51,553 bases of DNA, taken from the NCBI GenBank assembly GCA_022797375.1, contig JAAWKM010000006.1, positions 1-51,553 on the forward strand, given 5' to 3'. The notes under the pieces were generated by a model. That model made no database searches and was not told the DNA's origin. It worked only from the letters and a program-made list of their open reading frames with translations. Below, in pieces: positions 3,953 to 37,895 of this stretch. This DNA comes from Lachnospiraceae bacterium. GTDB taxonomy: Bacteria > Bacillota > Clostridia > Lachnospirales > Lachnospiraceae. The position numbers and the translations under genes are program-made. Within the stretch, counting starts at the first letter, position 1, and every line of letters starts with the position of its first letter.

Positions 3953-5026
3953 TTATACTTCGCTTTTATAAAGTAACAAATACTCCATCGCTTCTTCCGC
4001 TGTTAATGGATTATTTCTAGCATTAACAAGACGAACAATAATTTCTTCATCAGAATAACCTTCTTCTACTAAAGTTTCAATTTTTCCAAGAGCTATCCCC
4101 ATATCCTTTCCATCTGCCCTTCCACGGGCTGCTGCAGCTTCTACTTCACGTGCCACAATCTCTTCTACTTCTGAATAATATCCTGACATAGTTTTCAACT
4201 CCTCTCCATACTTAGCTATTACAGTGTCAAACTTCGTATCATACTTCATTAAACGGCTATCACCAAACTGCCCAGCAAACAGTAAAGAAACATATTCAAC
4301 AACAGGTTCCAATCCATTTTTTACTGTTTTACTCTCAAGTATACTCTTATCTATACAAACAAAATAAATATTTAACAAATCTGTTACAGCATTCATCCTT
4401 CCAACAAAGCTGCCAGGACTATCAGCCTGGTTATAATTCATATCTTTTAAACTATACCGCAACACTTTATTAGCCGCATCAGTATTCTTTCCAACTAACG
4501 TAATTCATACACTAAAGACTGGCATTAAAATCCCATAGTTAGTAGTCTGGTCAATTTTAGGTATCTGGTCACTAATTAATCTTGAACCATAATACAGACC
4601 CCTGTATGAAAGTGGATAATTCGGAGTAGAATTCCTTTGCATCTCTAAATTTAACCTAACCTGTACATATCTGCTACCTACTTCAGCCACTTTATCAGCA
4701 GGTACCCCAACCTTCACTAAAATGTCAAATTTAACAGTACCCTCTCCCTTTACATAGCTCTCACTGATAGTAATTTTATCATCAGTACCTGGCTTAACTG
4801 TTACCATGGGGTCTACAGACTCAATTAATCCAGCCACATCATCTACAGAACAATATTGGTACAATTCAATTGTTTCTTTAATTATAACTGCTAAAACACG
4901 CTTAATAGAAAAAACATTTTTAAAAGGAGCATCATAGGTAACATCTTTAAAATCAGATGACATCTTAAACATAGAACCCCCGGCTGAATTCCTGTTTTCA
5001 TCAAAAGCATGTATTTCCCTAACCAT
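3953..5026 (-). pseudogene. Rpn-like PD-(D/E)XK nuclease gene with one in-frame opal codon
   Basis: Start ATG 5026 follows GGGAGGTGTGGT. The first half carries the family start (TYDAPFKNVFSIKRVL) and the nuclease core (VKFDILV and NLEMQR). TGA at 4505-4507 interrupts at PVFSV. The same frame continues ITLVGKN... to TAA at 3953, giving 357 codons. The intact paralogue at 39868-40911 reads PVYSIWITLV at this point, so the stop replaces a Trp codon (TGG to TGA). The tail contains RGRADGKDMGIALGKIETLVEEG, the regulatory coiled region typical of the family. If the TGA is not read through, the product would be a truncated protein with most of the nuclease core. Confidence 0.8.
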
Positions 5027-5334
5027 ACCACACCTCCCTACTTTTATTAACAACACTTCACAAATCTTATACTACACTTCTATTTTAATTTTATCAAATT
5101 GCATAAACAAATGCAATTATTTGCACGCAACTTAAAAAGCACAAAAACAGTAAGCCTGGCAAATATATGAATAAGAAGAACAGAAGGGATTGTAAAATTG
5201 GCCGCCGAAGCATACAGCTTCTAACACTCCAAAAATACAATCCCATATCTGACTACAAAGGAACACTCTTAATTCCTAAAATAAAATAACAGCCATCTCT
5301 TACCCAAACCTGAATAACAGGTAACCTCACCGTC

Positions 5335-6084
5335 TTAACACCACTCATCAGTATCAATCTCGCAAACCTCTAGTATTTCGAGAGAATTGCAAAACTGGTC
5401 TAATGCAAAACACCCATCGCAAGACTCTGCTAAATAAAATGAAGGCATCCCCCAAGTAGAGCCTACAGCTTCCCTGGCACTGAACTTTAAGTCCTTAAAA
5501 TCAGAGGCATTAGCAGAACCTTGTGCAAGCACTTTTTGTCGTACGTTACTTCCATCAAAAGTAAAATATAACTCAAGCTCAATGGTGCTTTCATCATACC
5601 AAATGCCTGCTATGTCAACAATGGCGTGTCCCTCACTCATCTCACCACACTTAAAGAAATTTTCGCTGTTAAAATTATCACTTTCAAAAACACTTGGTGT
5701 AAATGCCTGGATTTCTTCTTCTGTAAAATATTTAACATCTGTCCTATAATTAACTTCTACCACTTCCGAAGCATAAAAACCTGATGTATATTCAATACAG
5801 GAACCATCAGAACCCGCTCCTTCCAAAAGGTCTTCCCGGAACCTGCCGCCTGGATAACCAGAAACTTCATAATAATATTCTTCACGTATACCATTAATAG
5901 AAGGTTCTTCTCTTTTCAAAACTTTTGTAACAGTTGTTTTTGGCGGACAAGAAGTATCATCACCAACGTATTCAATTTCCATACCACCAGCAAGATTATG
6001 CTCTAACCAGCCACCTCTGTACCGGCTGTCTTTCAAAATTACACTATCCCCAACTCTAAATTTTGAATTTTCTGAAATAAACAT
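5335..6084 (-). CDS. Hypothetical 249-aa protein with an SH3-like N-terminus
   Basis: Starts behind AAGGAAGGATTGTAA. I do not recognise a family. Residues 8-25 (FRVGDSVILKDSRYRGGW) look like a small beta-barrel of the KOW/SH3 type. The rest is acidic with Cys near 92 (CIEY) and three Cys in CDGCFALDQFC close to the end. There is no signal peptide or membrane segment, so it is probably cytoplasmic. The roughly 280 bases downstream of its stop (5057-5334) show no gene. The gene is divergent from the plus-strand gene at 6131; the two starts are under 50 bases apart and share an AT-rich promoter region (TATACTATAAT). Real gene likely; function unknown. Confidence 0.7.
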   Translation of the reverse strand: MFISENSKFRVGDSVILKDSRYRGGWLEHNLAGGMEIEYVGDDTSCPPKTTVTKVLKREEPSINGIREEYYYEVSGYPGGRFREDLLEGAGSDGSCIEYTSGFYASEVVEVNYRTDVKYFTEEEIQAFTPSVFESDNFNSENFFKCGEMSEGHAIVDIAGIWYDESTIELELYFTFDGSNVRQKVLAQGSANASDFKDLKFSAREAVGSTWGMPSFYLAESCDGCFALDQFCNSLEILEVCEIDTDEWC

Positions 6085-6130
6085 TTACAATCCTTCCTTT
6101 CTATACTATAATCACCATGGAGGTGTTTAC

Positions 6131-6550
6131 ATGAATTTTAACAACATTTTTGAATATGAAATAAAAATCTTTAAAACTTCGGCTTACATAAAAATGTATG
6201 AAATATACGAAAAACGTTTTATGCCACGCAAAAGCACCATGAAATACATTCCATTCAAAAATAAATACTACAGCTGCCAGGAGTATTATTCCCGAATACC
6301 AAGGTTTACGCTCCGATACAAAACACATAACTACAAAATTGAAAATAAAAATATTATATCCCTGAATTGCAAGGAGTGCCACGCTTTCCTCCAGGACTAT
6401 GCCCGTTTAATCTTAAAATATAGAATACAACCTGACAGCACAGAAGAAAGCAGGAGGTTTGAGGAAACTCCGCACCCAGTTCCATTAGAAACAGCAGAAC
6501 AGATAAAGCTGGCTACACTAGCTAAGTTTCAAAAAAGCTTGTGCAATTAG
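6131..6550 (+). CDS. Hypothetical basic 139-aa protein
   Basis: Plus-strand gene with a strong site, GGAGGTGTTTAC, directly before ATG 6131, and a TAG stop that overlaps the end of the minus-strand gene at 6547. The protein is rich in Lys, Tyr and Arg in its first 90 residues (KFKNKYYSCQEYYSRIPR-like composition) with a C-x2-C pair (NCKECHAF) near residue 80, which could bind a metal or nucleic acid. The opposite strand also has an open frame here (6101-6382), but that frame lacks a ribosome site. Function unknown. Confidence 0.65.
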   Translation: MNFNNIFEYEIKIFKTSAYIKMYEIYEKRFMPRKSTMKYIPFKNKYYSCQEYYSRIPRFTLRYKTHNYKIENKNIISLNCKECHAFLQDYARLILKYRIQPDSTEESRRFEETPHPVPLETAEQIKLATLAKFQKSLCN

Positions 6551-7725
6551 CAGCACACTTTCACCATACGCACGGCTTTCAGGCTTTCTTCCATTGCAAA
6601 CATTGACTCATTAAAAGAAACAAAACCATTTTCATCACTTTCTGGTTCTTTGTAGTCTGGCTTCCATTCAGCATATCTTTCTGCACCAAGATTTTCTAAC
6701 ATAGCAGCAGCACACAACTCAGGAGTCTGTTCCTTTACCCATTGTAAGGCTTCTCCATTACGTTTTACTGCTGCCATGCAAATCTCAGGTGTCTGCTCCT
6801 TTACCCATCTTAGAAGAAGCCCATTACGTTTTACTTCCCTTAAAGCATCTGCTTTACTTATTACAGGATTAGCAGACCTCCTGCCTTTCCAGCCCTCAGG
6901 ATAATAAAACAGCCTTAATGGGATACTGTCTGGAGAAAGGCTATACCCATCACAGTCCAGCCAGTCAGGTGGGTCAATAGCTTCCTTTTCGCAGTAATAT
7001 GCTGCTATGGCGTCTTTAAAACCTTTAGCCCCGTCCAGGATAAAATTCTCTACAGTTTTTCTAAATTCTAAAGGGCTGCTGAAATCCTTCTTTTCAAAAC
7101 CATATGGAGGAAGTCCTGCAAAAATCCAGTAATTTACAATATTCCTTAAGCAATTAATCTTATCCATTTCAATAGAAAGCCATCCTATAATTTTACTATC
7201 AGCACAGTCATTATTAAAATCATAACTGTAAACCTTGGTACTGCCACCAACCGCTACAGAGGAAGGTATTCTTCCACATCCACACACTTCAGCATTGCCA
7301 TAGACGCACGCATTTGGTTCTACTGAGGCATTACCACAAACTATTGCATTATCTGTAATCTCTGCACCATTTTCAACGCTTGCACACCCGCTAATTTTTG
7401 CATTTCCGTGTATTTTAGACCCTATAATACTGGCGTAGCCACAAACCACTGCATTTCCTGAAACCACAGAACCTTCCTCTATTACAGCATTGCCAGCCAC
7501 TAAAGCATCACCACAGACTACAGAATCATCAATAACTACAGCATTATCTTTCACCCATGCGTTACCACCATGGCTGAGATTATACTCCATACCTATCCAG
7601 CCACCCACATCACCCTTTTTTACACCACCAAAAGAACGTACAGCCCTTATCTGGCGCACTATAACATTCCTGTACACTGCATAGGCTTCCTTTTCTAAAC
7701 CTGTAAACTCATATTTCTTTTCCAT
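6547..7725 (-). CDS. Beta-helix (YdcK-like) protein with C-terminal DUF4116 repeats
   Basis: 392 aa. Residues 20-55 carry the VRQIRAVRSFGGVKKGDVGGW motif region that opens YdcK-like proteins. About 100 residues of left-handed beta-helix repeats follow (NAVVCGYASIIGSKIHGNAK and similar G-N-A/V steps of 5-6 residues). Residues about 300-345 hold two DUF4116 units (VKEQTPEICMAAVKRNG and VKEQTPELCAAAM). The same 22-residue unit is amplified in the genes at 30628, 32037 and 32935, so this is a fusion linking two repeat families. The role is probably scaffolding or protein binding; no catalytic residues are visible. The gene ends tail-to-tail with the plus-strand gene at 6131. Confidence 0.75.
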   Translation of the reverse strand: MEKKYEFTGLEKEAYAVYRNVIVRQIRAVRSFGGVKKGDVGGWIGMEYNLSHGGNAWVKDNAVVIDDSVVCGDALVAGNAVIEEGSVVSGNAVVCGYASIIGSKIHGNAKISGCASVENGAEITDNAIVCGNASVEPNACVYGNAEVCGCGRIPSSVAVGGSTKVYSYDFNNDCADSKIIGWLSIEMDKINCLRNIVNYWIFAGLPPYGFEKKDFSSPLEFRKTVENFILDGAKGFKDAIAAYYCEKEAIDPPDWLDCDGYSLSPDSIPLRLFYYPEGWKGRRSANPVISKADALREVKRNGLLLRWVKEQTPEICMAAVKRNGEALQWVKEQTPELCAAAMLENLGAERYAEWKPDYKEPESDENGFVSFNESMFAMEESLKAVRMVKVCC

Positions 7726-16914: not shown

Positions 16915-17568
16915 TTAAACAGCAAACTCTGCCAATTTTTCTATTGCATTTGCTTTTAACAGGCAGGTAAAATGTTCATTACAATATTCATAGAAATTGT
17001 CCCAGTAAGGGCACTGTCTGGCATATTCCAGTGTAAAAGAACACACCACATCCACATCACCAGGATTAATACCACTTGTTTCAAAACACAAATAATAAAC
17101 ACCTTTAGCATCATCTTTATACACACTGTTAAAAATACCTGTAGCAAAAGGGTATGCCGCAGCATACCCTTCTAAATTTTTGAATGACTCAAAACAAAAT
17201 ATTATTTTATTTTCTGCAAAGCTATCTGGAGCATCAGACTGTCTGGTATCCTGTACAGCATTTCCAAGCAAAGAATCGGGCACCTGTGACAACAATGGTG
17301 GCAGTTCTGGGAAATCTTTATCTTCATTACAGGAAGAAACAGTTACAACCGCTGATGAACTGTCAACTAACTGCAAATTAACCACCACTCTCGTAGAGTC
17401 TATAACATATCCTATTTTATCCTCTGCCTCTTCTATAACCATATCCAGCAGAGATTGCAATCCTGCCTGGTCTTTTATAATATCAGTAAATGTACATCCT
17501 ATAGGCTGCAAATCTTCTAATGTCACCATACACTTAAAACTATCTTCCCCAATCCGTAAAAATTTCAT
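16915..17568 (-). CDS. MecA-like adaptor protein (first copy)
   Basis: 217 aa from ATG 17568, preceded by GAGGTGTTAT. The N-terminus (LRIGEDSFKCMVTLEDLQ) matches the substrate-recognition domain of MecA. The C-terminal half (SVYKDDAKGVYYLCFE...FTLEYARQC...YCNEHFTCLLKANAIEKL) matches its ClpC-binding domain. MecA adaptors deliver proteins to the ClpC-ClpP protease. Total length is usual for the family. A second copy lies at 29567-30226 and shares the SVYKDDA/TVYKDDAxGxYYLCF core. Such genes are normally core genes; two divergent copies in an accessory region suggest specialised clients. The family call is confident; ClpC binding is untested. Confidence 0.8.
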   Translation of the reverse strand: MKFLRIGEDSFKCMVTLEDLQPIGCTFTDIIKDQAGLQSLLDMVIEEAEDKIGYVIDSTRVVVNLQLVDSSSAVVTVSSCNEDKDFPELPPLLSQVPDSLLGNAVQDTRQSDAPDSFAENKIIFCFESFKNLEGYAAAYPFATGIFNSVYKDDAKGVYYLCFETSGINPGDVDVVCSFTLEYARQCPYWDNFYEYCNEHFTCLLKANAIEKLAEFAV

Positions 17569-17611
17569 ATAACACCTCATTCCTATTATCAAGCTAGGTC
17601 ATATAAAACAT

Positions 17612-18700
17612 TTAAAAAGCAGACATTTTTTTAGTAACACAGTTTTCATTCTTATGAAAAGCTAAAAGATATGAGTATTTAGTATCCGTTAATAACCACT
17701 CCAGTTTATTTTCTCTAACATCCAGACCGCATTTTTGTGACAATTCAAACGTGCAAAAAGAAAATGAACCACAATCTTCGAAATAACATTTTCTTAGCTT
17801 TTTTCCGTGCACATATTTATATGGCTTTTCTCTAGTTACATAAGCAAGAAGCTTTTCAAAAAATGTTTCCCATGACAGACAGTATTTATTGGCATAAGCT
17901 GGTAAATCTTTAAATACATTTATAACTTTCTGATTATTTCGAAACATATTACTACACAATAATAATCCCTCAAAACACTCATAGGAATCCAATACTGCCA
18001 AGTCATAGTCCCTCAGCTTATTTACAAATCTTTCAATTTCACATCCAAATGCAGCACTATCAAATATAACAAGTATGTTTTTATCTTTTACAGGTAATTT
18101 CTCAATCTTATCAACAATTGCGCTTTTCCCACCATCAGAATGTTCCACCTGGACTGTATTTAAAAGTTTGCTAAAAAACTCAAAACCACCTGAAGTATCT
18201 TCTGTAATACAAATATCCAATCCAGAAAACTGGCTGCATTTTTTCAAATTATAAAACGGCTCTAACCAATGGTTAAGACCATCACTGCATAAACGGTATA
18301 TTGAATCAATACTGTAAGATATATTCGGCATATACCCAGCTTCCTTGGTATGTTGCTCTATTTTCAAATTTTCTCTGTTAAAAATTAATAAATATAAATT
18401 ATTTTTAACAACATATTCATAACAACACTTAGCAAATTCTGCACTATCAATAACATTAGAGTCATCGAAAATTATTATAGCATCATGTGATGCTGTCATC
18501 AAAGCTTTCCAGCCAAGGTCATCAGCAATCAGCACATCTAATGTAATATTTTTGATAATATCTGGAGATGTATCCCTTATAAGCTCTAACAAAGATGTTT
18601 TACCAGTACCACTATCCCCTTTAATAACATTTATCCTTCTTTCAAAATAAAATTTACACACATACTGGTTAGAGGTTATCTCTAATTCTATAGTACTCAT
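17612..18700 (-). CDS. P-loop ATPase of the DUF4869 module, copy 1
   Basis: 362 aa from ATG 18700 behind GGGGGGTTTGTTG; its start overlaps the end of the DUF4869 gene by 32 bases. The P-loop is GDSGTGKT (28-35) and Walker B AIIIFDDS (74-81). The second half has ITEDTSGGFEFF with Glu167, HSDGGKSAI near 188 and VIFDSAAFG with Asp214. This order of Glu, Gly-Gly and Asp-x-x-x-x-Gly looks like a TOPRIM-type fold, as in OLD nucleases, but that is inference. The protein ends KKMSAF, a C-terminal motif shared with seven other products here. It probably works with the DUF4869 partner; the function is undescribed to my knowledge. Confidence 0.75.
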   Translation of the reverse strand: MSTIELEITSNQYVCKFYFERRINVIKGDSGTGKTSLLELIRDTSPDIIKNITLDVLIADDLGWKALMTASHDAIIIFDDSNVIDSAEFAKCCYEYVVKNNLYLLIFNRENLKIEQHTKEAGYMPNISYSIDSIYRLCSDGLNHWLEPFYNLKKCSQFSGLDICITEDTSGGFEFFSKLLNTVQVEHSDGGKSAIVDKIEKLPVKDKNILVIFDSAAFGCEIERFVNKLRDYDLAVLDSYECFEGLLLCSNMFRNNQKVINVFKDLPAYANKYCLSWETFFEKLLAYVTREKPYKYVHGKKLRKCYFEDCGSFSFCTFELSQKCGLDVRENKLEWLLTDTKYSYLLAFHKNENCVTKKMSAF

Positions 18701-19118
18701 CAACAAACCCCCCAAAAGAATTTATTTTTTTCCCTGACTCAACAATTACTGCTTCAAATCCAGATTCAGGAAACTGCATAATATGGTGTAACGTAATATG
18801 GACATCTTTATTCCTGGCAATGTCTAAAATACACGGAACGCAATTATCACCACACTTGGTTGCATAAATATAAGGGTTTTCAAGCACGGCCATCAGTATA
18901 ACTGCTTTACAGCCTGTTGATAATTTTGCAGGTGCCATACCGCCAAATACAGGCGACTCGATATATTCATCTTTTACAGCTATAGATAAATCTATAGCTT
19001 TGATAATCTTTTTAACATCATCACGGTTAAACCAGTCTTTGGACTTATTCCGGTTAAAGTATGGGTCTATAGTTCTTATACATTCCCTTTCAACTGGCCC
19101 AACATGTATATATAACAT
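18669..19118 (-). CDS. DUF4869 protein, copy 1
   Basis: 149 aa behind GAGGTGGTTTA. The family marks are the start MLYIHVGPVE, a WFNRDDVKK region, SPVFGGMAPAKLSTGCKAV, then KCGDNCVPCILDIARNKDV and the end-region FPESGFEAVI. The same skeleton (SPVLGQIPP/LSGGVKAL/CGNNCAKW) is present in the copies at 20689 and 37428. DUF4869 has no assigned biochemical role. The gene overlaps the following P-loop ATPase by 32 bases, so translation of the two is coupled. The conserved Cys-Gly-x-Asn-Cys motif could be catalytic or structural. Confidence 0.8.
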   Translation of the reverse strand: MLYIHVGPVERECIRTIDPYFNRNKSKDWFNRDDVKKIIKAIDLSIAVKDEYIESPVFGGMAPAKLSTGCKAVILMAVLENPYIYATKCGDNCVPCILDIARNKDVHITLHHIMQFPESGFEAVIVESGKKINSFGGFVDEYYRIRDNL

Positions 19119-20688: not shown

Positions 20689-21117
20689 CTATCTGTGGTA
20701 TTTAACCATAAAATCCATATAACTATGGTACAAATCACCAGTAGCTGCATCTATAAAATCAAATTCTGTTTCCGGAAACCTAAAGTAATGCTCTATACTG
20801 ATAGTTAAATCTTTCCGTTTACCGATTTCAAGAAACCATTTGGCACAGTTATTCCCACACGCAGTAGCCCAGATTTCCCAGTCAGTCTTTAAAGCCATGA
20901 TTAAGGCTTTTACCCCGCCAGACAAACCTGTTGGTGGAATTTGCCCGAGTACAGGGCTCTGGATACAATATGGTGAAAGAATTTCTGATTTGTCTACATC
21001 AAGTACCATTTCTTTTACAAGTGGGTCAGCCAGCCATTCTTCTTCATAATTATTATCAAAAACAGATTCCACAAGTTCAATGGTATCATCTGTTGTTCCC
21101 CATCTTATACTCAGCAT
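20689..21117 (-). CDS. DUF4869 protein, copy 2
   Basis: 142 aa. Its ATG (21117) directly follows the stop of the ATPase gene, with GGAGGCGTTTTAA as ribosome site. Family marks are MLSIRWGTTDD, EEEWLADPLVKEMV, SPVLGQIPPTGLSGGVKAL, ATACGNNCAKWFLEIGKRKDL and FRFPETEFDF. This copy is closest to what I know as the typical DUF4869 sequence. Unlike copies 1 and 3, here the ATPase comes first and DUF4869 second. Reversal of gene order with preserved pairing argues that the two proteins act together. Biochemical role unknown. Confidence 0.85.
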   Translation of the reverse strand: MLSIRWGTTDDTIELVESVFDNNYEEEWLADPLVKEMVLDVDKSEILSPYCIQSPVLGQIPPTGLSGGVKALIMALKTDWEIWATACGNNCAKWFLEIGKRKDLTISIEHYFRFPETEFDFIDAATGDLYHSYMDFMVKYHR

Positions 21118-21789
21118 TTAAAACGCCTCCATTCTGTTTGTGCCTTCATTTATGTGTATGTCAGGTTTAAACATATGATGTTTATATTGACAGGTATCTA
21201 TTTGCCTGCAAGTATTACATAAAGAATTACGTTTCAGACAATTTGGTAAATACCCTTTAGAATAATTAATTTTATCCTTTAACTGTTCCTCTGCTGCCTG
21301 TTCCTGAAAAAATTCCCAACCACTGGCTTTGTCTTCTGTTATTATATGTTTTATCTTATTAAAATCTTTTATTCCACTGACAGTATACTTCTGCCTTATC
21401 CAGTGTACCCTGCCGTTAGTTTCCATCTCATATAAATTTTCAACACACAATGGCAGAAAGTCTAAATTTTTTCTGTATATTATTATAAAATAATTGTCTG
21501 ATTTTTGCAGTATAGAGGCTACATCAGGTTCTCTTAAAATTTTATAATTTTCATCTATTATAACTATGGAATTTTGAATACCCTGAAGTCCGCTCCCATT
21601 ATCAAACGGTGCAATTGTTACTACCGGAAGACTGCTGGTAACCTTAACCGTTTTATCTCCTGTAAGCTTTTGCTGTAACAACCTGCACATATTAGTTTTT
21701 CCACTCCCGCTATCCCCCTGTATCACAGAATACTTACCTTTTATATCTAATTCATACTTTAAACGTTTTGTTTCTATTTCTATATACAT
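21118..21789 (-). CDS. P-loop ATPase of the DUF4869 module, copy 2 (short form)
   Basis: 223 aa from ATG 21789 behind AAGGAGCTCAGA. The P-loop is GDSGSGKT (25-32), Walker B SIVIIDEN (74-81), and IITEDKASGWEFF sits at 149-161 with Glu152, as in copy 1. After that the TOPRIM-like second half of copies 1 and 3 is missing. It is replaced by a Cys/His cluster: Cys184, 191, 194 and 200, and His204-205, possibly a zinc site. It ends NRMEAF, a variant of the shared C-terminal motif. The gene is complete, with good signals at both ends, so the short form may be functional rather than decayed. Confidence 0.75.
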   Translation of the reverse strand: MYIEIETKRLKYELDIKGKYSVIQGDSGSGKTNMCRLLQQKLTGDKTVKVTSSLPVVTIAPFDNGSGLQGIQNSIVIIDENYKILREPDVASILQKSDNYFIIIYRKNLDFLPLCVENLYEMETNGRVHWIRQKYTVSGIKDFNKIKHIITEDKASGWEFFQEQAAEEQLKDKINYSKGYLPNCLKRNSLCNTCRQIDTCQYKHHMFKPDIHINEGTNRMEAF

Positions 21790-21914
21790 TCTGAGCTCCT
21801 TATTATTTGATATGGGCTGGTTATATACCTTTTGTTCTTTTATCAAACCGCAGTTACAACTTAATATTTATTTGGTTCTATAGCTGGACAATGCTATCAA
21901 ATTAATAAAACTGC

Positions 21915-22933: not shown

Positions 22934-24526
22934 CTATTGCAACAATATAAGTAATTCATCTATAAGTTTTTTAAATTTCTTTCTATCATCTCTGGTATAG
23001 AAGGATATTATATTCTTTGCTTTTCTAGCACAATTCAAGCATGCTTCATTTTTACAAATATTAAAGTAAAATATAGCATTACAATAATGTGTTTCTGCAA
23101 TTGAATAATGATTTTCTGGAAATATTTCTCTTTGAATCTTTAGCGTTTCCAAGTTATCTTTTAATGCACACCTACACCTTCCCTCGTAAACACCAATTAT
23201 CCAACTTGATAATATTTTCATACGATAATACAAAATACTGTTTATAAAAGAATTATCATCACACCAGTTAAAGAATGAATTGCAACTATTCTTGGCATCT
23301 GCAACTTTACAGTCCATTAAATTGATAACAGCGATATTATAATAATAAGTAAATACTTCTTGAATACCACTATCGTTACTAAGATGCACATAGTTTTTAT
23401 AATAACCAGACAGGTCTTTCACTTGTTTCCGCTCCCAAATGTCTAAAATAGCATAATCATTGTAGTATTTAAAAACACTAGAATAGCTAAAAAAATGTCT
23501 ATATGTAAATAAAAAAGATATATGAACAGCATTCAGTTCTCTTGCTGTCCTTACATCATTATTCTCCAACACAAAATACAGCAGGCAAGCCAGAAACGCA
23601 TCTATCCAGCCAGCAGACTTCTTCTTTAAACTTACATTAAGGTTAATCATCTCTTTGACAGCAAACAGTATTGAATAAATATTTTTAATTTCCAACTTTA
23701 AGCTGCCACAAAAACAAACCATTATTATAGCTGAAAACAGTGGAATAATGAAAGGTTCTATATACTGCATTTTATTTCTTAAGCGCAAGATATCTAAGTA
23801 GTCTAAAGTAAAGTCTATTATCCTGTAAACAACTGGCAGATAATTTTCATGGTATTTAGGATACACAATATCTGATTTACCAAAAGATAACCCTAAAAAA
23901 ACCGTTGCACTATCCAGACAATTTAAAATTTTTTTATTCAACTGTTTTAACTCAATATCATTAAGCCTGACATAACGGAACTGCTTTAACTTATATTCTA
24001 TATAATCCAGAACATTATCACCATCATATTCCAGACTTTTCACGCTGTCTGCATTTGCTGTATAAAACTCTTTAAAATTGGTATATGTAACATCATTACT
24101 CAAAAGCAACGAAAATGGTACATCATAGATTACGGTGTAATCAAGAACTATCATCGAATAACTTCCAAAATCAGGATAATTCTGCTGGAGATATGATAAC
24201 TGTGAAGAAAGAAAACCAAAAATAAGACACTTTCCGGAAACATACAAAGAATCCCTCATATAAGTAATTCTTTCTGCCAGTATTTCAAACTCTTCGTCAA
24301 ATGTTATAAATAAATAATCATTAACAGCACCTGAAATCTCTTCCAATATCAAACTTTCAGTTCCTAGCCTAATATGAGAACAATCCCTGGTTTGGTTAAT
24401 TTTACTATATACATTTTCCAACATATTTTCCGAATTAGATACAACAAACAAAAATGAACTAAAAGAATTTTCCAGCATAAATTTCAGTTTTTTATTATTT
24501 TCTACAAAATCAATGATAGCTTCCAT
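22934..24526 (-). CDS. Large helical protein partnered with an AAA ATPase
   Basis: 530 aa; its ATG (24526) overlaps the end of the ATPase gene by 17 bases, so translation is coupled. I do not recognise the family. The first 130 residues look alpha/beta (FSSFLFVVSNSENMLENVYS, DYLFITFDEEFEILAERI, GKCLIFGFLS) and could be a signalling or ATPase-related domain without a P-loop. The remaining 400 residues are almost all helical with many paired Tyr/Leu/Asn positions (AKNSCNSFFNWCDDNS, ETHYCNAIFYFNICKNEAC), like degenerate TPR hairpins. It may sense a trigger or act as the effector of the pair. Defence is suggested by neighbours only. Confidence 0.65.
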   Translation of the reverse strand: MEAIIDFVENNKKLKFMLENSFSSFLFVVSNSENMLENVYSKINQTRDCSHIRLGTESLILEEISGAVNDYLFITFDEEFEILAERITYMRDSLYVSGKCLIFGFLSSQLSYLQQNYPDFGSYSMIVLDYTVIYDVPFSLLLSNDVTYTNFKEFYTANADSVKSLEYDGDNVLDYIEYKLKQFRYVRLNDIELKQLNKKILNCLDSATVFLGLSFGKSDIVYPKYHENYLPVVYRIIDFTLDYLDILRLRNKMQYIEPFIIPLFSAIIMVCFCGSLKLEIKNIYSILFAVKEMINLNVSLKKKSAGWIDAFLACLLYFVLENNDVRTARELNAVHISFLFTYRHFFSYSSVFKYYNDYAILDIWERKQVKDLSGYYKNYVHLSNDSGIQEVFTYYYNIAVINLMDCKVADAKNSCNSFFNWCDDNSFINSILYYRMKILSSWIIGVYEGRCRCALKDNLETLKIQREIFPENHYSIAETHYCNAIFYFNICKNEACLNCARKAKNIISFYTRDDRKKFKKLIDELLILLQ

Positions 24527-25877
24527 TTAAAAACCCCCGCCTATTTGCCCAGTCCAAAACCATCGGATGTACCACATATACACCATCCCTATACTCTAAT
24601 ACTAAATCGAATCTCAATAAATTTCTAAGTAAATCATCGTTAAACTGAGCTGACGGGTGTTCAAATATATTCTTTATACGGCTTAACATTTCAGAAGAAT
24701 TTAAAAATTTTCCGTAGGAATCTTCCATCTGGTATGCCCATTCTTCCACATCAGCCATTCCTATCTGGCTCTTTCCCGATATGCCAGCATTTGTTGCTGC
24801 ACCTACAAGCAAAGAAAACAAATCCCTTATCAAGCCTCCCGATATCTTTATTGCAAATTCTAGAGCATTTTCTTCTATAAGAAATTTTTCCATTCTTTTG
24901 TAAACAAGTTGTTTTAATGAAACTATCCCATCATCAAGATAATCATGATTTACTCCAAGTATCTGGACAACACCGAGATTGAATACATCATCATAAACAT
25001 CTTTTATATTAGAATACTCAGGAGAATACAGTGCATATACAGGAAATGTTCCAATAATAGCAGCATGCATATTAATAATTACCGTAGCATGTGTATTATA
25101 TATTTCATACGCCACCTTATTGTAAGGTGTCTTGTCTAAATTTTCTAATATTATCAAAAGTCTTTTTCCATTTAACTTTTCTTGTACTCTGTCTAACATC
25201 ATGTTTAAAGCTTCCAAGAAAATATTATCATTTTTTGAGATAGTTTTATTAATAATCTCATCCACAGTACCAAATTCAGAATAGCTACTTGAAGAATTGA
25301 TATTTCCTTTCATTCCTATAGAAAGAAGCAACTTTAATTTATCCAAAACTCCGAATTTAGTAGTTATGTTCCCCTTTGCTGAAATCTCATTTGAATACTT
25401 TTTTTCATAACTATTTACATTCTCTACTACAGATTTAATCTGGATTTCAGTATCCCAATAATTATATAAAAAGTCAAATGCTTTATCATTAGCTTCTATT
25501 ATACCAGCATCTATAACAGAACGGCCCACTTTATTTACAAGTTCTACAAGCAAATTTGTATAGTTAAGAGAACCTGAACCAAAAGCGTCAGAAGCATCAA
25601 TAACTACTGAATAATAACTGCAACAGTTTCTTTTTGCTCTTGTTAATTCTGTAGATTTGCCAACGCCTCTATGTCCAGCAAGTATATATTTGCCATAAGA
25701 AAAGGTGTTAGTCTGTAAACGGTATTCCAAGTGCCTGGTTATATCTATACGCTGTAGATTAGCAAACTGATAATAAAATTTATCTATATCATTACTTGTT
25801 AATGGCCCATTACCAAAAACTCTTAAACATTCCTGTATATTAGTAGCTTTTTCCATAAGTGGCATCCTTTCTATCAT
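24510..25877 (-). CDS. AAA/STAND-type ATPase of a two-gene system
   Basis: 455 aa behind GGAGGAAATATT. The P-loop AGHRGVGKST is at about 67-76 and Walker B LLIILENLDKT near residue 240. Helices with SGGLIRDLFSLL near 355 follow, then a probable winged-helix end (LRFDLVLEYRDGVYVVHPMVLDW). The layout of P-loop, Walker B, helical lid and winged helix fits STAND or Orc-like AAA ATPases used as sensors in prokaryotic immunity. The next gene overlaps and encodes a large helical protein. A 60-codon remnant of a second copy lies at 19348-19533. I know of no name for this pair; that it defends against phage is inference. Confidence 0.7.
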   Translation of the reverse strand: MIERMPLMEKATNIQECLRVFGNGPLTSNDIDKFYYQFANLQRIDITRHLEYRLQTNTFSYGKYILAGHRGVGKSTELTRAKRNCCSYYSVVIDASDAFGSGSLNYTNLLVELVNKVGRSVIDAGIIEANDKAFDFLYNYWDTEIQIKSVVENVNSYEKKYSNEISAKGNITTKFGVLDKLKLLLSIGMKGNINSSSSYSEFGTVDEIINKTISKNDNIFLEALNMMLDRVQEKLNGKRLLIILENLDKTPYNKVAYEIYNTHATVIINMHAAIIGTFPVYALYSPEYSNIKDVYDDVFNLGVVQILGVNHDYLDDGIVSLKQLVYKRMEKFLIEENALEFAIKISGGLIRDLFSLLVGAATNAGISGKSQIGMADVEEWAYQMEDSYGKFLNSSEMLSRIKNIFEHPSAQFNDDLLRNLLRFDLVLEYRDGVYVVHPMVLDWANRRGFLNGSYH

Positions 25878-28444: not shown

Positions 28445-29011
28445 TTAAAAAATATCCATTACTTTTGTTAATCCCTGTTCTGGTTCATCCTTCTGTACAT
28501 AAATATATTGTAACACCTTTTTGCTGAAATTGTTATTCAGCTTAACGAATGTATACTTTGTATTTTTAGAGCTTTCTATAACGATTTCGGGATTAACAGT
28601 ATTCTGGTTAAACTTAAGCGACATCCCACCAAACATAGTATATGGTAAAATCATATGTACACCAGAGAACCTGCGGTTCATAACAGCAACATTTAAACCT
28701 TTCCAGATTATACACCCTTCGTCTGTTTTCAGAATAAATTCTGGAATATTATACACATCAGCAAAATAATCTCTTGCACTATTGTTATCTGGATTCTTTA
28801 AAAATCTCACCAATTCAGCTTCACTCCTGCCAAACCCTGTCAGTAGAAATCTGTAATCCATCTTCTTGGCTTCTGGAAATTTTGTTTTAAATGAATCTAC
28901 ATCGTAACACCATACTGGAGTAGAAGCTCCTGTATCGAATAGTAATTTCATATTGTCATATCTTATAACAGGTATAATTTTCCCAGTCAATACATTAAAC
29001 TTAAGGTTCAT
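28445..29011 (-). CDS. Retropepsin-like aspartic protease domain protein
   Basis: 188 aa; its ATG lies inside the end of the upstream gene (11-base overlap). Residues 23-30 read LLFDTGAS, the exact active-site motif of retroviral-type aspartic proteases with Asp26. The later hydrophobic-Gly stretch MILPYTMFGG fits the second flap/psi-loop element. With one Asp the enzyme would act as a dimer. Bacterial single-domain retropepsins are known but little studied. The last residues are TKVMDIF, the C-terminal motif shared with the DUF4116 and DUF4869-linked ATPase proteins, which raises the idea that tag and protease belong to one system. Activity is untested. Confidence 0.75.
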   Translation of the reverse strand: MNLKFNVLTGKIIPVIRYDNMKLLFDTGASTPVWCYDVDSFKTKFPEAKKMDYRFLLTGFGRSEAELVRFLKNPDNNSARDYFADVYNIPEFILKTDEGCIIWKGLNVAVMNRRFSGVHMILPYTMFGGMSLKFNQNTVNPEIVIESSKNTKYTFVKLNNNFSKKVLQYIYVQKDEPEQGLTKVMDIF

Positions 29012-29566: not shown

Positions 29567-30226
29567 TTATACTAAACAGCAAACTCTGATATTTTTTTCC
29601 AAAGCGTTTGATTTTATCAAACAGGTAAAATGCTCATCACAGTATCTGTGAAAATTATTCCAGCCACTGCACGGTACGGCATATTCAAGTGTAAAAAATA
29701 ACATCACATCTATCTCTCCAGGATTCATGCTGCCAATATCAAAGCATAAATAATAAATACCATTAGCATCATCCTTATATACAGTATTAACAACAGACGT
29801 ATCAAAAGGATATGCAGAAGCATACCTTTCCAAGTCCTTAAATGACTTAAAACAGAATATCATTTCATTCTCGGTGCATCTATACATACTGGAATACCCG
29901 TATATATCCCCGGCTGCTGCTGTTAAAGTATTACCAGGCACTGGAGAAACTTTTTGTAACATCCTGTCACAAACAGCACCTTCTTCACAAGTGTGGAACG
30001 TTAAAACAACTGAACCTGCATTAACAAGGCAGAAAGAAACTATTATACCATGGGTACCAGCATTATATCCTATTTCCTGTTCTGCTTCCTGAAGAACTGC
30101 AAACAATAATCCAGACAGTTTATCCTTGTCTGTTATTATATCAATAATTTGCATACCAGCAGACTGTAAATCTTCTGTAGTTACCATACACTGAAAAGTA
30201 TTTTCATCAACTTTCCAGAATTGCAT
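29567..30226 (-). CDS. MecA-like adaptor protein (second copy)
   Basis: 219 aa from ATG 30226 behind GGAGGTTTTATCT. The N-terminal WKVDENTFQCMVTTEDLQ and the C-terminal TVYKDDANGIYYLCFDIG, FTLEYAVPC, YCDEHFTCLIKSNALEK match MecA domains. The copy at 16915 shares these blocks, so they are paralogues, while the central linker differs. The extreme C-terminus departs from the family: after NALEK comes NIRVCCLV instead of the usual helix, maybe from a late frameshift. MecA adaptors feed proteins to ClpC; clients here are unknown. The gene stands alone with its own promoter region. Confidence 0.8.
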   Translation of the reverse strand: MQFWKVDENTFQCMVTTEDLQSAGMQIIDIITDKDKLSGLLFAVLQEAEQEIGYNAGTHGIIVSFCLVNAGSVVLTFHTCEEGAVCDRMLQKVSPVPGNTLTAAAGDIYGYSSMYRCTENEMIFCFKSFKDLERYASAYPFDTSVVNTVYKDDANGIYYLCFDIGSMNPGEIDVMLFFTLEYAVPCSGWNNFHRYCDEHFTCLIKSNALEKNIRVCCLV

Positions 30227-30339
30227 AGATAAAACCTCCATTCTTATTTAATATCCTTTGATGGCAGATTGCTATTTTAGTTTACACTGTTCTACAATTA
30301 ACTTGTAAAAATAATATTTTTCAAACTTCAAAAAGCAGG

Positions 30340-30627: not shown

Positions 30628-31089
30628 TTAAAATATTGACATTACTGTTGATTTATTTTTATTGGAATTTGGTATAACTTTTAACATGGATTTGTCTTGT
30701 ACATATCTTAAAGCACATCCATTTTGTTTTACCGCTTCTAAGCAAATTTCAGGTGTCTGTCTTTCTACATATTCCAATGCCAAACCATTCTGCTTTACTG
30801 CCGCAATGCAAATTTCAGATGTTTGTTTTTTTACATACTGTAAAGCATAGCCATCCTGTTTTACTGCTTCTAAACAGATTTCAGATATTTGCTTTTTTAC
30901 ATAATACAAAGCATAACCATTCTGCTTTACTGCTTCTAAGCAAATTTCAGGTGTTTGCTCTTTTACAAATTCTAAAACATAGCCATTCTGTTTTACTGCT
31001 TCTAAGCAAATTTCAGGTGTTTGTTCTTTTACATACATCAAATTAAACCCGTCTTCTCTTACCATTTCCAACGCTTCTTCTTTATACAT
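30628..31089 (-). CDS. DUF4116 repeat protein, 5 units
   Basis: 153 aa behind GGAGGTAAAGATT. A cap (MYKEEALEMVREDGFNLMY) is followed by five 22-residue units of the type VKEQTPEICLEAVKQNGYAL plus two residues, then VQDKSMLK and a Ser/Asn/Lys linker ending STVMSIF. Each unit should form a helical hairpin, stacked into a solenoid suited to protein binding. DUF4116 has no known enzymatic role. The ending MSIF is one form of the shared C-terminal motif. Longer relatives lie at 32037 (11 units) and 32935 (8 units), and two decayed ones at 30340 and 31127. Confidence 0.85.
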   Translation of the reverse strand: MYKEEALEMVREDGFNLMYVKEQTPEICLEAVKQNGYVLEFVKEQTPEICLEAVKQNGYALYYVKKQISEICLEAVKQDGYALQYVKKQTSEICIAAVKQNGLALEYVERQTPEICLEAVKQNGCALRYVQDKSMLKVIPNSNKNKSTVMSIF

Positions 31090-31126: not shown

Positions 31127-31376
31127 CTAAAATGCTGACATCGTTGCTGAACTGTTTGGTTTACTCTTTGGCTTTGTATTTACAGAACTTAACATAAATT
31201 TATCTCTTACATAATGGAAAGCAACTTCATTTCATTCCACTGCAGCTTTCCAAATATCTGATGTCTGGTCTTTTACAAATTGTAAAAACAGACTATTCTG
31301 TCTTACCGCTTCTAAACAAATTTCTGGCATCCACTTTTCCAATTCTGACCAAAGCGGATACTTTCTATCACTAACC
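31127..31376 (-). pseudogene. DUF4116 repeat gene remnant with an internal TGA
   Basis: The minus strand reads EKWMPEICLEAVRQNSLFLQ FVKDQTSDIWKAAVE, TGA (31232-31234), NEVAFHYVRDKFMLSSVN and ends SATMSAF at TAG 31127. The stop sits where other units have a residue such as Trp (KWNG), so TGG to TGA is likely. No start codon or end-cap is present upstream. The C-terminal MSAF is intact, which adds an eighth instance of the shared C-terminal motif. Confidence 0.65.
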
Positions 31377-32036: not shown

Positions 32037-32903
32037 TTAAAATGCTGACATTACTGGTGACTCACTTAGCTTACTCTTTGATTTTATATTTGCAGAGTTT
32101 AACATGGATTTGTCTTTTACATATCCTAAAACACGACCAGTTTGTTCCACTGCAGCTTTACAAATTTCAGGTGTCTGTTCTTTTACATATCCTAAAGCAT
32201 AGCCATTCTGTTTTACTGCTTCTAAACAAATTTCAGGTGTCTGCTCTTTTACATTTTCTAAAGCACTACCATTCTGTTTTACTGCTTCTAAACAAATTTC
32301 AGGTGTCTGTTCTTTTACAAATCTTAAAGCATAGCCATCCTGTTTTACTGCTTCTAAGCAAATTTCAGGTGTCTGTTTTCTTACATATTCCAGTGCCAAG
32401 CCCCTTTGTTTTACTGCAGCAAGACAAATTTCAGGTGTCTGTTCTTTTACATATTGTAAGTTAAAGCCATACTGTCTTACTGCTTCTAAACAAATTTCAG
32501 GTGTCTGTTCTTTTACATAATACAAAGTATAACCATTCCACTTCACTGCCGCAAGACAAATTTCAGGTGTCTGTTTTCTTACATATTCCAGTGCAAAGCC
32601 ATCTTGTTCTATTGCTGCAAGACAAATTTCAGGCGTCTGTTCTTTTACATATTCCAAAGCACAGCCATTTTTCTTCACCGCCTTCAAACAAATTTCAGGT
32701 GTCTGTTCTTTTACATATTCCAGTGCAAAGCCATCTTGTTCTACTGCTGCAAGACAAATTTCAGGTGTTTGTTCCTTTACATAATACAATGCACAGCCAC
32801 TATGTTTTACCGCTTCTAAACAGATTTCAGGTGTTTGTTCCTTTACAAACCGTAGATTAGGACCATCTTTTCTTACCTTTTTTAACATTTCCTCATTATT
32901 CAT
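32037..32903 (-). CDS. DUF4116 repeat protein, 11 units
   Basis: 288 aa behind GGAGGTAAAATT. The N-cap MNNEEMLKKVRKDGPNLRF is followed by eleven 22-residue units (VKEQTPEICLxAVxxxGxxL and two more residues), then VKDKSMLNSANIKSKSKLSE and the end SPVMSAF. Units 7 and 1-2 vary most at the two positions after the Gly, which would lie on one face of the solenoid and may set binding specificity. The 66-base DNA repeat is so regular that long open frames also appear on the opposite strand. The cap and tail are nearly identical to those of the 8-unit gene upstream, so the two arose by duplication and differ by unit gain or loss. Confidence 0.9.
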   Translation of the reverse strand: MNNEEMLKKVRKDGPNLRFVKEQTPEICLEAVKHSGCALYYVKEQTPEICLAAVEQDGFALEYVKEQTPEICLKAVKKNGCALEYVKEQTPEICLAAIEQDGFALEYVRKQTPEICLAAVKWNGYTLYYVKEQTPEICLEAVRQYGFNLQYVKEQTPEICLAAVKQRGLALEYVRKQTPEICLEAVKQDGYALRFVKEQTPEICLEAVKQNGSALENVKEQTPEICLEAVKQNGYALGYVKEQTPEICKAAVEQTGRVLGYVKDKSMLNSANIKSKSKLSESPVMSAF

Positions 32904-32934: not shown

Positions 32935-33603
32935 TTAAAATGTTGACATTACTGATGACTCACTTAGCTTACTCTTTGATTTTATATTTGCAGAGTTTAA
33001 CATGGATTTATCTTTTACATATTCTAAAGCACTACCATTCTGCTTTACTGCTTCTAAACAAATTCCAGGTGTTTGTTCTTTTACAAATCTTAAAGCATAG
33101 CCATCCTGTTTTACTGCTTCTAAGCAGATTCCCAAAGTCTGTTCTTTTGCATACAATAAAGCACAACCATTCTGTTTTACTGCCTCCAAACAAATTTCGG
33201 GTGTCTGTTCTCTTACATACAATAAAGCACAGCCATTCTGTTTTACTGCTTCTGAACAGATTTCAGGTGTCTGTTCTTTTACATACAATAAAGCATAACA
33301 ATTTTGTTTTACTGCCACTAAACAAATTTCAGGTGTCTGTTCTTTCACATATTCTAAAGCACAACCATTCCGTTTCACTGCCTTTATACAAATTTCTGGC
33401 ATCTGTTCTTTTACATATTGTAAAGCATAACCATTCTGCTTTACCGCTTCTAAACAAATTCCAGGTGTTTGTTCTTTTACATATTGCAAAGCACAGCCAT
33501 TCTGTTTTACTGCTTCTAAACAGATTTCAGATGTTTGTTCTTTTACAAACCGTAAACTAAGCCCATCTTTTCTTACCTTTTTTAGCATTTTTTCATTGTT
33601 CAT
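32935..33603 (-). CDS. DUF4116 repeat protein, 8 units
   Basis: 222 aa behind GGAGGTAAAATT. N-cap MNNEKMLKKVRKDGLSLRF, eight 22-residue units, VKDKSMLNSANIKSKSKLSE and the end SSVMSTF. Cap, tail and even the ribosome site are shared with the 11-unit gene 31 bases downstream, so the pair is a recent duplication and probably co-transcribed. One unit begins AKEQ and another has Cys in place of Gly (VKQNC), showing local drift. Its role is probably protein binding; no catalytic site is visible. It is first in the array of repeat genes, with its promoter in 33604-33980. Confidence 0.9.
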   Translation of the reverse strand: MNNEKMLKKVRKDGLSLRFVKEQTSEICLEAVKQNGCALQYVKEQTPGICLEAVKQNGYALQYVKEQMPEICIKAVKRNGCALEYVKEQTPEICLVAVKQNCYALLYVKEQTPEICSEAVKQNGCALLYVREQTPEICLEAVKQNGCALLYAKEQTLGICLEAVKQDGYALRFVKEQTPGICLEAVKQNGSALEYVKDKSMLNSANIKSKSKLSESSVMSTF

Positions 33604-33980
33604 AATTTTACCTCCAAATAAAATAATAAACTTGTAATAATCTGTTTACATTAGACTATCGTTGTAACAGTTTTAATAGTACTTATTACACACCTCTTAA
33701 TTTCTCTTCCTGTTTTAAAACCAATATTTTTACACAACTACAAGAGTTCCTCTATACCTTACACTGTCTACTTTACTATAGTGAAGCGCCTAACAATAAA
33801 CAGGTTTTCAAACAAAAACAATATAAAGATTTAAGTATGCAGCTTAAACAACTAATAGCAGTACAATGTAAGACCTGTACAATAAAAATTATTATTTTCA
33901 CTTTTTATAAAATCCTTCTCTGTTTTCACAGAAAATATTTTACAATTAGTAAGTACAAAAATAAAAAGGAGATTTTAATT
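33604..33980. other. Divergent promoter region of the repeat genes and the recombinase
   Basis: No gene. Minus-strand promoters for the DUF4116 array and plus-strand promoters for the recombinase must both lie here. An in-frame ATG for the recombinase exists at 33837, but it lacks a ribosome site, so this stretch is treated as untranslated. Confidence 0.5.
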
Positions 33981-36435: not shown

Positions 36436-37428
36436 TCAAAAGGCAGACATTTCTTTTGTATGTTTTCTTTTTTGTTTTTTGTCATCCCCTCCATGAACCA
36501 GACTGTTATAACTGTTTATAAAATCATACAGCCCTCTACCTGTATCACTCTTAAAAACTAAATCAAAATTACTCTTGTCCAGAAATGCTTTGGGCAGATT
36601 TTTACCATGTTCATATTCCAGACAGCTTCCAATTGTTAATTCTGTCAAAACATCTTTATAATACTTCTCTATGGTAATATAATCAAATACATATTTTAAA
36701 GTAGTTGTTTGCAAATTTCTAACAAGCTGGCTTGCACACAAGAACTCCTCAAACGACTGGTAATTATAAAATTTAATACTTGGGTTATCCCTGCATCTTT
36801 TAGCAAGAATGGCATATGCCCTCCCAATATTTCCTAAATCCGCCAATACCAGAATATCCCCTGTTGTATTACGCAGTAATTTTTCTATTCTGTCACGCCC
36901 TCCTGCTGCCTGTACATTATTTAAATAACAGGACATTAATTCATGTTCTGAACGTCCTTTGTGTGATTCAGTAATTACCATTTTGCAGCCAATACAATTA
37001 TCTGATACATTTAATCCAGAAACATTTTCTATAACAAACCAGTCATTATCCCTGCTAAGTTTATATATTCCCTGTAAGGGATAATCCAGTTTTAATGGAA
37101 ATGCCCTGGTAACAGTAATAAAAAGATGCTTAGACTGGTTTATTTTTGACAGAAATCTGCTGTGTAACATTTCAGCTTCATCCACCATTATAATAGAACG
37201 GTCTGGGGTGTTCAGAATAACATCCAATGAACCAGCCGTTGCAATTGCAAAAGGCAACTCAGAAACTACTGAAATATCGCCAGTACTAATACCATCTTCC
37301 AGTAATGAAACAAATTCACTTTTGCCCTCACCACTAAATTTGCCACATATACAAGTGTAATGGCTGAATAAACGCACATTAACTGATTTGCCATCTGACC
37401 TGACAAAATTAATATCAAAACTTTCCAT
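36436..37428 (-). CDS. P-loop ATPase of the DUF4869 module, copy 3
   Basis: 330 aa behind GAGGAGGAGATATA; its ATG overlaps the TAA of the DUF4869 gene by one base (TAATG). The P-loop is GKFSGEGKS (29-37), Walker B SIIMVDEAEML (78-88), and MVITESHKG carries Glu154. AAGGRDRI near 174 and ILVLADLGNIG with Asp197 repeat the TOPRIM-like order seen in copy 1. The Lys-rich tail ends TKEMSAF, identical in the last four residues to copy 1 although the rest of the sequences differ greatly. That contrast argues that the ending is under selection. Same operon layout as copy 1. Confidence 0.75.
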   Translation of the reverse strand: MESFDINFVRSDGKSVNVRLFSHYTCICGKFSGEGKSEFVSLLEDGISTGDISVVSELPFAIATAGSLDVILNTPDRSIIMVDEAEMLHSRFLSKINQSKHLFITVTRAFPLKLDYPLQGIYKLSRDNDWFVIENVSGLNVSDNCIGCKMVITESHKGRSEHELMSCYLNNVQAAGGRDRIEKLLRNTTGDILVLADLGNIGRAYAILAKRCRDNPSIKFYNYQSFEEFLCASQLVRNLQTTTLKYVFDYITIEKYYKDVLTELTIGSCLEYEHGKNLPKAFLDKSNFDLVFKSDTGRGLYDFINSYNSLVHGGDDKKQKRKHTKEMSAF

Positions 37429-37895
37429 TATATCTCCTCCTCACCAGAGGCACACCAGCCACTGTAAGCATCATCATAGGTATCCTGCGTTAAAACAGTT
37501 CCATTTATACTTACCAGTTTTTTTTCAAAATACTCACCAGGAAAATCCATATAATGTTCGAGCACAATAGTAATATCGTTACGTGCTGCAATTTCCATTA
37601 AAAAAGGTATACAGTTATCCCCCATGCCAGACCCATAAAAAACTGTATCATTTCCGTGATAATAAATACAGCATAAAGTCTTGCACCCTGTTGAAATCAT
37701 CTCTGTGCTTATCCCACGCCCTTTGTAATCTTTAAGGGCCTCTTCAAATAAAACTGTTGAACCATCTATTTCCTTCAGGAATTTTTTTACAAAACTGTCT
37801 TCAAACCACCCAGGTTTCTTATTCCTGCGGAAATAAATACGGGTATCCAGTACAAAATCCTGGCAGTTTTCCCTTCCAAAAATAATATTTAACAT
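37428..37895 (-). CDS. DUF4869 protein, copy 3
   Basis: 155 aa behind GGAGGTTTA. Start MLNIIFGREN, then KKPGWFEDSFVKKFLKEIDG, STGCKTLCCIYYHG, GSGMGDNCIPFLMEIAARND and DFPGEYFEKKLVS. The Cys-Gly of copies 1 and 2 is Met-Gly here (GMGDNC), so only the second Cys of that motif is strictly kept. It is first in the pair, coupled to the P-loop ATPase by a TAATG overlap. No known biochemical role. This copy neighbours a HipA-like pair, as copy 1 does at a distance of about 1.6 kb. Confidence 0.8.
   Translation of the reverse strand: MLNIIFGRENCQDFVLDTRIYFRRNKKPGWFEDSFVKKFLKEIDGSTVLFEEALKDYKGRGISTEMISTGCKTLCCIYYHGNDTVFYGSGMGDNCIPFLMEIAARNDITIVLEHYMDFPGEYFEKKLVSINGTVLTQDTYDDAYSGWCASGEEEI

Follow-up and report, generated by a model that had tools for sequence, protein, structure and literature searches.

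What do two small genes do that lie side by side three times over in a single stretch of a Lachnospiraceae genome? The window, as we call the whole of the 51,553-nucleotide stretch analyzed here (contig JAAWKM010000006.1 of assembly GCA_022797375.1, forward strand), contains three gene pairs, all six genes on the minus strand, in which a protein of the DUF4869 family (PF16163) adjoins a partner with a P-loop ATPase domain. A first-pass annotation had pointed out these pairs, proposed that their products work together, and compared the second half of the partner with the TOPRIM domain of OLD-type nucleases. Its observation is confirmed; what its interpretation missed is that DUF4869 looks like the signature-bearing, complementary half of an ATPase of the ATP-binding cassette (ABC) type. 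On balance, we lean toward the module being an ABC-type ATPase divided between two proteins and in control of a TOPRIM-like effector. This reading draws on the strict linkage of the genes, on the occurrence of fused as well as split forms, on motifs that complement each other, on decay that strikes one side, and on the coupling of DUF4869 to the P-loop half of its partner. The module is undescribed in the literature searched: no paper naming DUF4869 or PF16163 was returned by text searches, in agreement with the earlier remark that it has no assigned function, and the partner is labeled only "hypothetical protein" in three annotated records.

The gene pair, its linkage and its architectures

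The three copies and their principal features are the following:

18669..19118, minus strand: copy 1 DUF4869 protein, 149 residues, proposed signature-bearing half of an ABC-like ATPase (PF16163, E 4.3e-29; alignments)
18906..18923, minus strand: copy 1 signature-like motif LSTGCK, residues 66-71 (translation, aligned with the motif of 116 of 118 family members)
17612..18715, minus strand: copy 1 partner, P-loop ATPase domain and putative TOPRIM-like second half (partner profile, E 2.6e-45; alignment)
18596..18619, minus strand: copy 1 Walker A motif GDSGTGKT (alignment)
17612..18238, minus strand: copy 1 putative TOPRIM-like second half, bearing E172 and D219 (residue numbers count from the TTG), a conserved FE and the tail MSAF (alignment)
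20689..21117, minus strand: copy 2 DUF4869 protein, 142 residues (PF16163, E 5.4e-34)
20908..20925, minus strand: copy 2 signature-like motif LSGGVK, residues 65-70 (translation, alignment)
21118..21846, minus strand: copy 2 partner, P-loop domain only (partner profile, E 2.9e-37; alignment)
37428..37895, minus strand: copy 3 DUF4869 protein, 155 residues (PF16163, E 1.5e-22)
37680..37697, minus strand: copy 3 signature-like motif ISTGCK, residues 67-72 (translation, alignment)
36436..37428, minus strand: copy 3 partner, P-loop domain and putative TOPRIM-like half, C-terminal MSAF (partner profile, E 3e-20; alignment)
36436..36987, minus strand: copy 3 putative TOPRIM-like second half, with ITES, ADLGN and SFEEF (alignment)

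All three DUF4869 proteins exceed the Pfam cut-off. Their partners give only sub-threshold P-loop matches in Pfam, and copy 3 none of that kind; they were recognized among the open reading frames (ORFs) of the window by a profile of 85 relatives from which the window's own copies had been excluded. A whole-genome search gave stronger E-values because its profile included copies 1 and 3 and a fourth pair, which lies on another contig of the same genome (C245) with the partner first. The copy 1 partner has 367 residues from the TTG at 18715 where the listed ORF begins, or 362 from the likelier ATG at 18700; given the latter start, the two genes overlap by 32 bases. Those of copy 3 share one base (TAATG) and those of copy 2 abut, so that the gene junctions are as first described. 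The Walker A of copy 3 has one residue inserted (GKFSGEGKS). The copy 2 partner, whose likelier start is the ATG at 21789, is truncated: it matches the profile up to about position 202 of 323, has no TOPRIM-like half beyond an ITED motif, and ends in a cysteine-containing tail with the final residues MEAF. This loss had been overlooked, as had the occurrence of the same half as a separate gene in relatives (see below).

The module is real and strictly linked. In a contig scan with the partner profile, from which the best 80 loci among at least 369 relatives were taken (best matches, that is, picked by a profile itself built from paired genes), DUF4869 is adjacent and on the same strand in 77 of the 77 testable loci, which far exceeds chance; in the other three (L074, L079 and L096) some 130 bases of contig precede the partner and the place of DUF4869 is out of view. 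That the two proteins belong together is thereby supported. The 77 loci, drawn from L035-L114, hold 78 pairs, with DUF4869 first in 77 and the order reversed in one (L086), and it is first in 69 of the 76 adjacent pairs among genomes of the window's family; the reversal seen in copy 2 is genuine, though rare. Among the 63 strongest DUF4869 matches in these family genomes, 52 have a partner match within 1 kb and 11 have none; the corresponding count for the weaker matches is 24 of 40. The partner search behind these counts scored at most seven candidates per genome, and the counts leave aside the 33 partner matches of lowest score and, in G183, the second fragment of a DUF4869 gene that is broken; one of the 33 (G272:C143) adjoins a DUF4869 fragment and would turn 24 into 25 of 40. 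True orphans among the 11 are L162, L182, L183, L186, L187 and L188; in L185 a gene that by eye is of transposon type separates DUF4869 from its partner, and the other cases are broken or cut. No natural fusion of DUF4869 with the partner occurs among the ORFs searched.

Tight linkage with the small gene mostly in front is equally what would be expected of a plain two-component toxin-antitoxin system, in which DUF4869 is an antitoxin that directly blocks a toxic ATPase-TOPRIM protein and its LSxGxK motif is unrelated to ATP. The persistence of orphan DUF4869 genes on their own would also fit such a system, which we nevertheless regard as an unlikely account of the module in view of the motifs and co-variation described below.

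Many of the weaker DUF4869 matches proved to be forms with a P-loop protein of only about 142 residues. In 40 loci fetched for weaker or unclear cases, many of them picked for an already known partner match, DUF4869 was recognized in 37 (all except L177, L179 and L181), and 35 have a P-loop partner next to it, L162 and L175 being the exceptions. Here, a stand-alone gene, in most cases coding for about 230 residues, matches the fused partner within positions of roughly 153-306; it lies upstream in ten loci (L143-L146, L148, L152, L157, L158, L160 and L166) and downstream in seven (L147, L153, L155, L156, L159, L173 and L174). These separate effectors score low against the fused partner (about 8-29 bits); an alignment of 18 rows, comprising 14 of them and four fused proteins, keeps E9, D10, F19, D65, F94, E95 and E159. 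At more distant loci (L161, L168-L171, L250, L252 and L257) the third gene opens with a similar hydrophobic-(T/F)ED pattern, as judged by eye, and at some P-loop-only loci, such as L150, L172 and L178, no effector gene was seen. The separate and fused forms together indicate an order of DUF4869, P-loop and effector, either as three genes or with the last two fused. At L150, a 211-residue protein (4229-4864), presumably DarT-like from its appearance by eye, lies just upstream of the DUF4869 pair.

Complementary motifs and the proposed composite ATP site

The two proteins divide the motifs of an ABC ATPase between them. A signature-like motif, [LIM]S.G.K, is present in 116 of 118 DUF4869 members, none of which has a Walker A (0/118) or a recognizable Walker B. 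It is the best conserved part of a family alignment at about 20% identity, and in the structural model it falls where a helix begins, after which come a strand, a second helix and a second strand, as expected of an ABC signature (motif 65-70; helices 67-77 and 90-99; strands 82-84 and 105-109). The partner has the converse complement: Walker A in 87 of 88 fused and 31 of 33 P-loop-only proteins, a Walker B with its Asp in 64 and its Glu in 66 of 67 fused proteins, and a D-N version of it in 30 of 33 P-loop-only proteins, and no ABC signature in any chain (0/88 and 0/33). Even a very loose signature pattern finds only 15 of the 88 and one of the 33, at scattered places. The H-loop histidine is likewise absent from the partner, its position (equated by strand order) being Arg113 in all 67 proteins. 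The P-loop partner is modeled with the ABC nucleotide-binding fold and the DUF4869 model resembles ABC ATPases, albeit weakly; a comparison of the DUF4869 and partner profiles detected no homology.

These complementary motifs and ABC-like models imply that the two proteins probably form one composite ATP site, which probably restrains the TOPRIM-like effector. The pairing can be followed in the 67 of 88 partners that have a DUF4869 row to pair with them: DUF4869 co-varies with the P-loop half and not with the TOPRIM-like half. Both this and the fact that the best conserved part of DUF4869 complements what the partner lacks speak against a simple antitoxin that blocks the effector directly.

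We therefore favor the split ATPase, and picture it as follows. DUF4869, presumed to be a small ABC-fold protein, and its partner would pair asymmetrically around a single composite ATP site, to which the partner would contribute Walker A and Walker B and DUF4869 the signature. In the ATP-closed state, the TOPRIM-like nuclease domain, be it the second half of the partner or the product of the separate third gene, would be kept inactive. Its release would follow when DUF4869 is lost, the nucleotide state changes or a phage trigger arrives, and the released domain would cut nucleic acid and thereby arrest the cell. The physical contact, ATP hydrolysis, nuclease activity, toxicity, trigger and role in phage defense that this scheme calls for are what we infer from the observations; taken together, it looks like a new kind of cell-suicide or defense device. 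The proposed complex resembles those heterodimeric ABC proteins in which one site is non-canonical, TM287/288 for example, in being an asymmetric pair with differing ATP sites. Such heterodimers keep Walker A in both chains, unlike the module, in which DUF4869 has none.

One further arrangement deserves record. Directly before the DUF4869 triple of L258 lies another triple without DUF4869 (4864-6719), which encodes a 149-residue protein with the motif LSSGER, a 181-residue P-loop ATPase whose Walker B is more canonical, and a 292-residue protein with FED and DLD. It has the same split layout with more textbook motifs, and is a single instance: no second such triple was found in 200 family genomes, plasmids and viral contigs (searched with the P-loop protein) or in a phage collection (searched with the effector). 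Its P-loop protein resembles the P-loop-only partners (E 6e-7); the LSSGER protein has no significant similarity to DUF4869, hhalign having aligned the motif only (probability 0.2%).

The first-pass annotation had read Glu, Gly-Gly and Asp in the second half of the partner as TOPRIM-like in order. This is plausible, with weak support from the model and the alignments. Beyond residue 160, strands and helices alternate in the partner model in an order that fits a TOPRIM fold, and E166, D212 and E242, which fit it as well, are invariant in all 67 paired proteins, with E239 in 66. In a Foldseek search, rows two to four are GajA (two entries) and retron Eco8, at E 0.017-0.024 and low probability (0.11-0.21), and row nine is the Toprim domain of RNase M5 (E 0.13); thymidine kinase and other unrelated folds also rank in the first ten. 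Sequence comparison did not bear the assignment out, in that 18 effector sequences matched no Pfam Toprim family, no Toprim chain was among the PDB sequences matched, and the one hint was a faint hit of a single sequence to RloB (E 0.09), a protein related to OLD_TOPRIM according to PMC10440598. A DxD metal-binding pair is not found in the fused partners, where the consensus is D-G-A.

The module is nearest in kind to OLD, PARIS and AbiL, which raises the question of whether it is simply an anti-phage system of that type, with the P-loop-TOPRIM protein as a small homomeric OLD nuclease and DUF4869 as a phage sensor. The order of an ABC-type ATPase followed by a TOPRIM-like domain is that of OLD proteins (Class 1, and Class 2, which is GajA of Gabija); their ATPase-TOPRIM chain also has a degenerate or absent signature (PMC7049728), and GajA and Eco8 stand among the first Foldseek rows. 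In PARIS, which combines the ABC ATPase AriA with the Toprim nuclease AriB, the two parts are separate or fused, as in the module, and AriA keeps AriB inactive (sections of PMC12409363 and, for the fusion, of PMC10568477). The best PADLOC matches of the partner are to LmuB of Lamassu (E 1.8e-6 for residues 8-46 of copy 1; E 2.4e-4 for residues 23-164 of copy 2).

However, no PADLOC model spans the whole partner, and none matches copy 3 or DUF4869. Matches to AriA are confined to the P-loop region of copy 1, where they span 20 and 37 residues (E 0.012 and 0.015); AriB matches nothing in the window and none of the 18 effector sequences. The ATPase part of the module, at about 160 residues, is apparently too short for the dimerization insert of Ts OLD, its fused TOPRIM-like half lacks DxD, and, unlike either system, it has the ATPase itself split over two genes, with a separate DUF4869 protein bearing the signature-like motif. 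Defining features having been tested for and not found, we do not file the module under OLD or PARIS. DUF4869 is moreover better conserved than the partner halves (mean identity 56% against 51% and 44% in the 67 pairs), which does not suit a fast-evolving sensor, and its predicted fold is, albeit weakly, ABC-like. An OLD-type system with a sensor thus seems to us improbable, more so than an antitoxin. The AbiL-type pairs share with the proposed split ATPase the restraint of a TOPRIM-type toxin by an ATPase: ATPases of the AAA type, of the AriA/GajA/PtuA kind, neutralize TOPRIM_OLD toxins such as AbiL, their antitoxin being one ATPase gene in the pages of PMC10440598 that treat them. In the module, this function seems divided between DUF4869 and the P-loop protein, the latter often fused to the effector.

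One-sided decay, distribution and genomic setting

Damaged copies are informative as to which gene is kept. Among 64 classified copies of type I, assigned to decay classes by eye from a table, both genes are intact in 36, an intact DUF4869 stands with a broken (14) or missing (7) partner in 21, and an intact partner without DUF4869 occurs in none; of the others, two are ambiguous (L163 and L164), one is truncated where its contig ends, and DUF4869 is not intact in four (L189, L190, L246 and L256). If damage followed length alone, the partner being about 69% of the pair, the chance of 21 to 0 would be about 4e-4. Most loci of this survey were found via DUF4869; a separate search of the same genomes with the partner gave no near-full-length match without DUF4869. 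The pattern is as for a toxin and its restrainer, in that a linked toxin is not kept without its antitoxin, and the asymmetry hence counts for a plain toxin-antitoxin system as well. Several broken copies (L192, L193, L194 and copy 2 of the window) have lost the effector half and kept the P-loop half, and such P-loop-only remnants as L192, L193 and copy 2 still lie beside an intact DUF4869, which a toxin blocked directly by its antitoxin does not readily explain.

The annotation had further placed the module in a defense island. This was not borne out: PADLOC models matched number 127 for the 146 nearest genes and 103 for the 144 outermost genes of the same loci, not clearly more, in a comparison that counts models and not genes, cuts proteins to their first 400 residues and takes control genes mostly 5-10 kb from the pair, such that an island larger than the locus would go unseen. 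The fused pair has no fixed third neighbor within up to four genes on each side, the commonest cluster being found at 10 of 80 loci. The neighbors are varied; of 25 Pfam families shown, none is in more than four of the 146 nearest genes and several are metabolic or regulatory, and on two of three plasmids the neighbors are mostly ordinary, the third being rich in IS66. The module seems not to need a defense island. Standalone abortive-infection or toxin-antitoxin units often lie outside such islands. A standalone location, at several loci beside ordinary genes, accords with a toxin-antitoxin system, and the lack of enrichment weighs against an OLD-type anti-phage system.

The same setting would suit a cellular housekeeping or regulatory ATPase outside of any conflict, a role put forward for Cran1, an OLD protein of archaea; a part in the cell cycle is on record for an OLD-class protein (PMC12796447). 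The distribution of the module makes this the least probable account, and to our minds a doubtful one: DUF4869 is present in only 57 of the 299 genomes of the window's family, one of which (G111) has up to 13 matches, and decay is frequent. A screen of 398 genomes across the phylum detected the module in none besides the window's own genome; the contig scan added a few loci labeled Selenomonas, Coriobacteriaceae or other actinobacteria and one Victivallales bin, most of them in metagenome bins, and three plasmids carry it, a scatter that again does not befit housekeeping. Carriage by phages was considered and set aside: both genes occur in one viral contig and in five of five phage-collection records, and the three of these that were opened are UNVERIFIED unannotated metagenome scaffolds, so they provide no evidence.

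The neighborhood in the window and implications

The neighbors named earlier for the window hold up in part: Fic is above the Pfam cut-off and HipA_C below it, the "nuclease" (39868-40911) has a sub-threshold match to PDDEXK_2, and the "PARIS-like" genes, an overlapping pair at 22934-25877 that encodes a 455-residue P-loop protein and a 530-residue protein, have no PADLOC match at E <= 1 and no Pfam family above cut-off. A tyrosine recombinase of the phage-integrase family (33837-34889) lies mid-way in the variable region on the strand opposite to its neighbors.

A near-identical tail of the form M-[SDE]-[AIT]-F, written in differing codons, ends at least seven proteins of the window. They belong to three kinds that are not related, namely the ATPases of all three copies, three repeat proteins resembling DUF4116 and the product of 28445-29011; a remnant ending at 31127 has the tail too. 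The genes concerned are:

ends at 17612, 21118, 28445, 30628, 31127, 32037, 32935 and 36436, minus strand: genes bearing the tail

The DNA pattern of the tail occurs six times in the window against 0.55 expected, once (25913) away from a listed ORF end. As a genome-wide tag MSAF fails, with 33 matches against 35 in a reversed control, and it is local to the window. The repeat proteins (30628-31089, 32037-32903 and 32935-33603) consist of near-identical units of about 22 residues; two of the three were scanned and are DUF4116 (5 and 10 stretches), and the third is alike by eye. Two genes for MecA-like adaptors (16915-17592, with a MecA match of E 1e-29, and 29567-30241), mutually 47% identical, both lie near tail-bearing proteins, the first directly behind ATPase copy 1. 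MecA proteins hand substrates to ClpCP. A shared recognition tag is one idea for the common tail, which, by this analogy, might act as a degron.

If the split ATPase is borne out, it would provide the first function for DUF4869 and its partner, and would reveal how little of an ABC ATPase suffices for a regulated toxin when the two sides of the ATP sandwich are on two proteins. The provision of the signature in trans, normally hidden in homodimers, would become testable by omitting one gene. A partner-supplied signature would also help explain how ATP is used by OLD proteins, which the relevant passage of PMC7049728 reports as lacking a proper signature. We advance a stronger claim tentatively, as falling a little short of evenly poised: DUF4869 would be the first protein known to act as a free-standing, dedicated carrier of an ABC signature, one ABC ATPase having been parted into a catalytic half devoid of the signature and a signature half devoid of Walker motifs, which together make an obligate single-site ATP switch restraining a TOPRIM-type toxin. 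If it is true, the fused, three-gene and order-swapped forms, along with the unrelated-looking LSSGER triple of L258, would amount to an entire class of effector systems with a split ABC ATPase in Bacillota of the gut.
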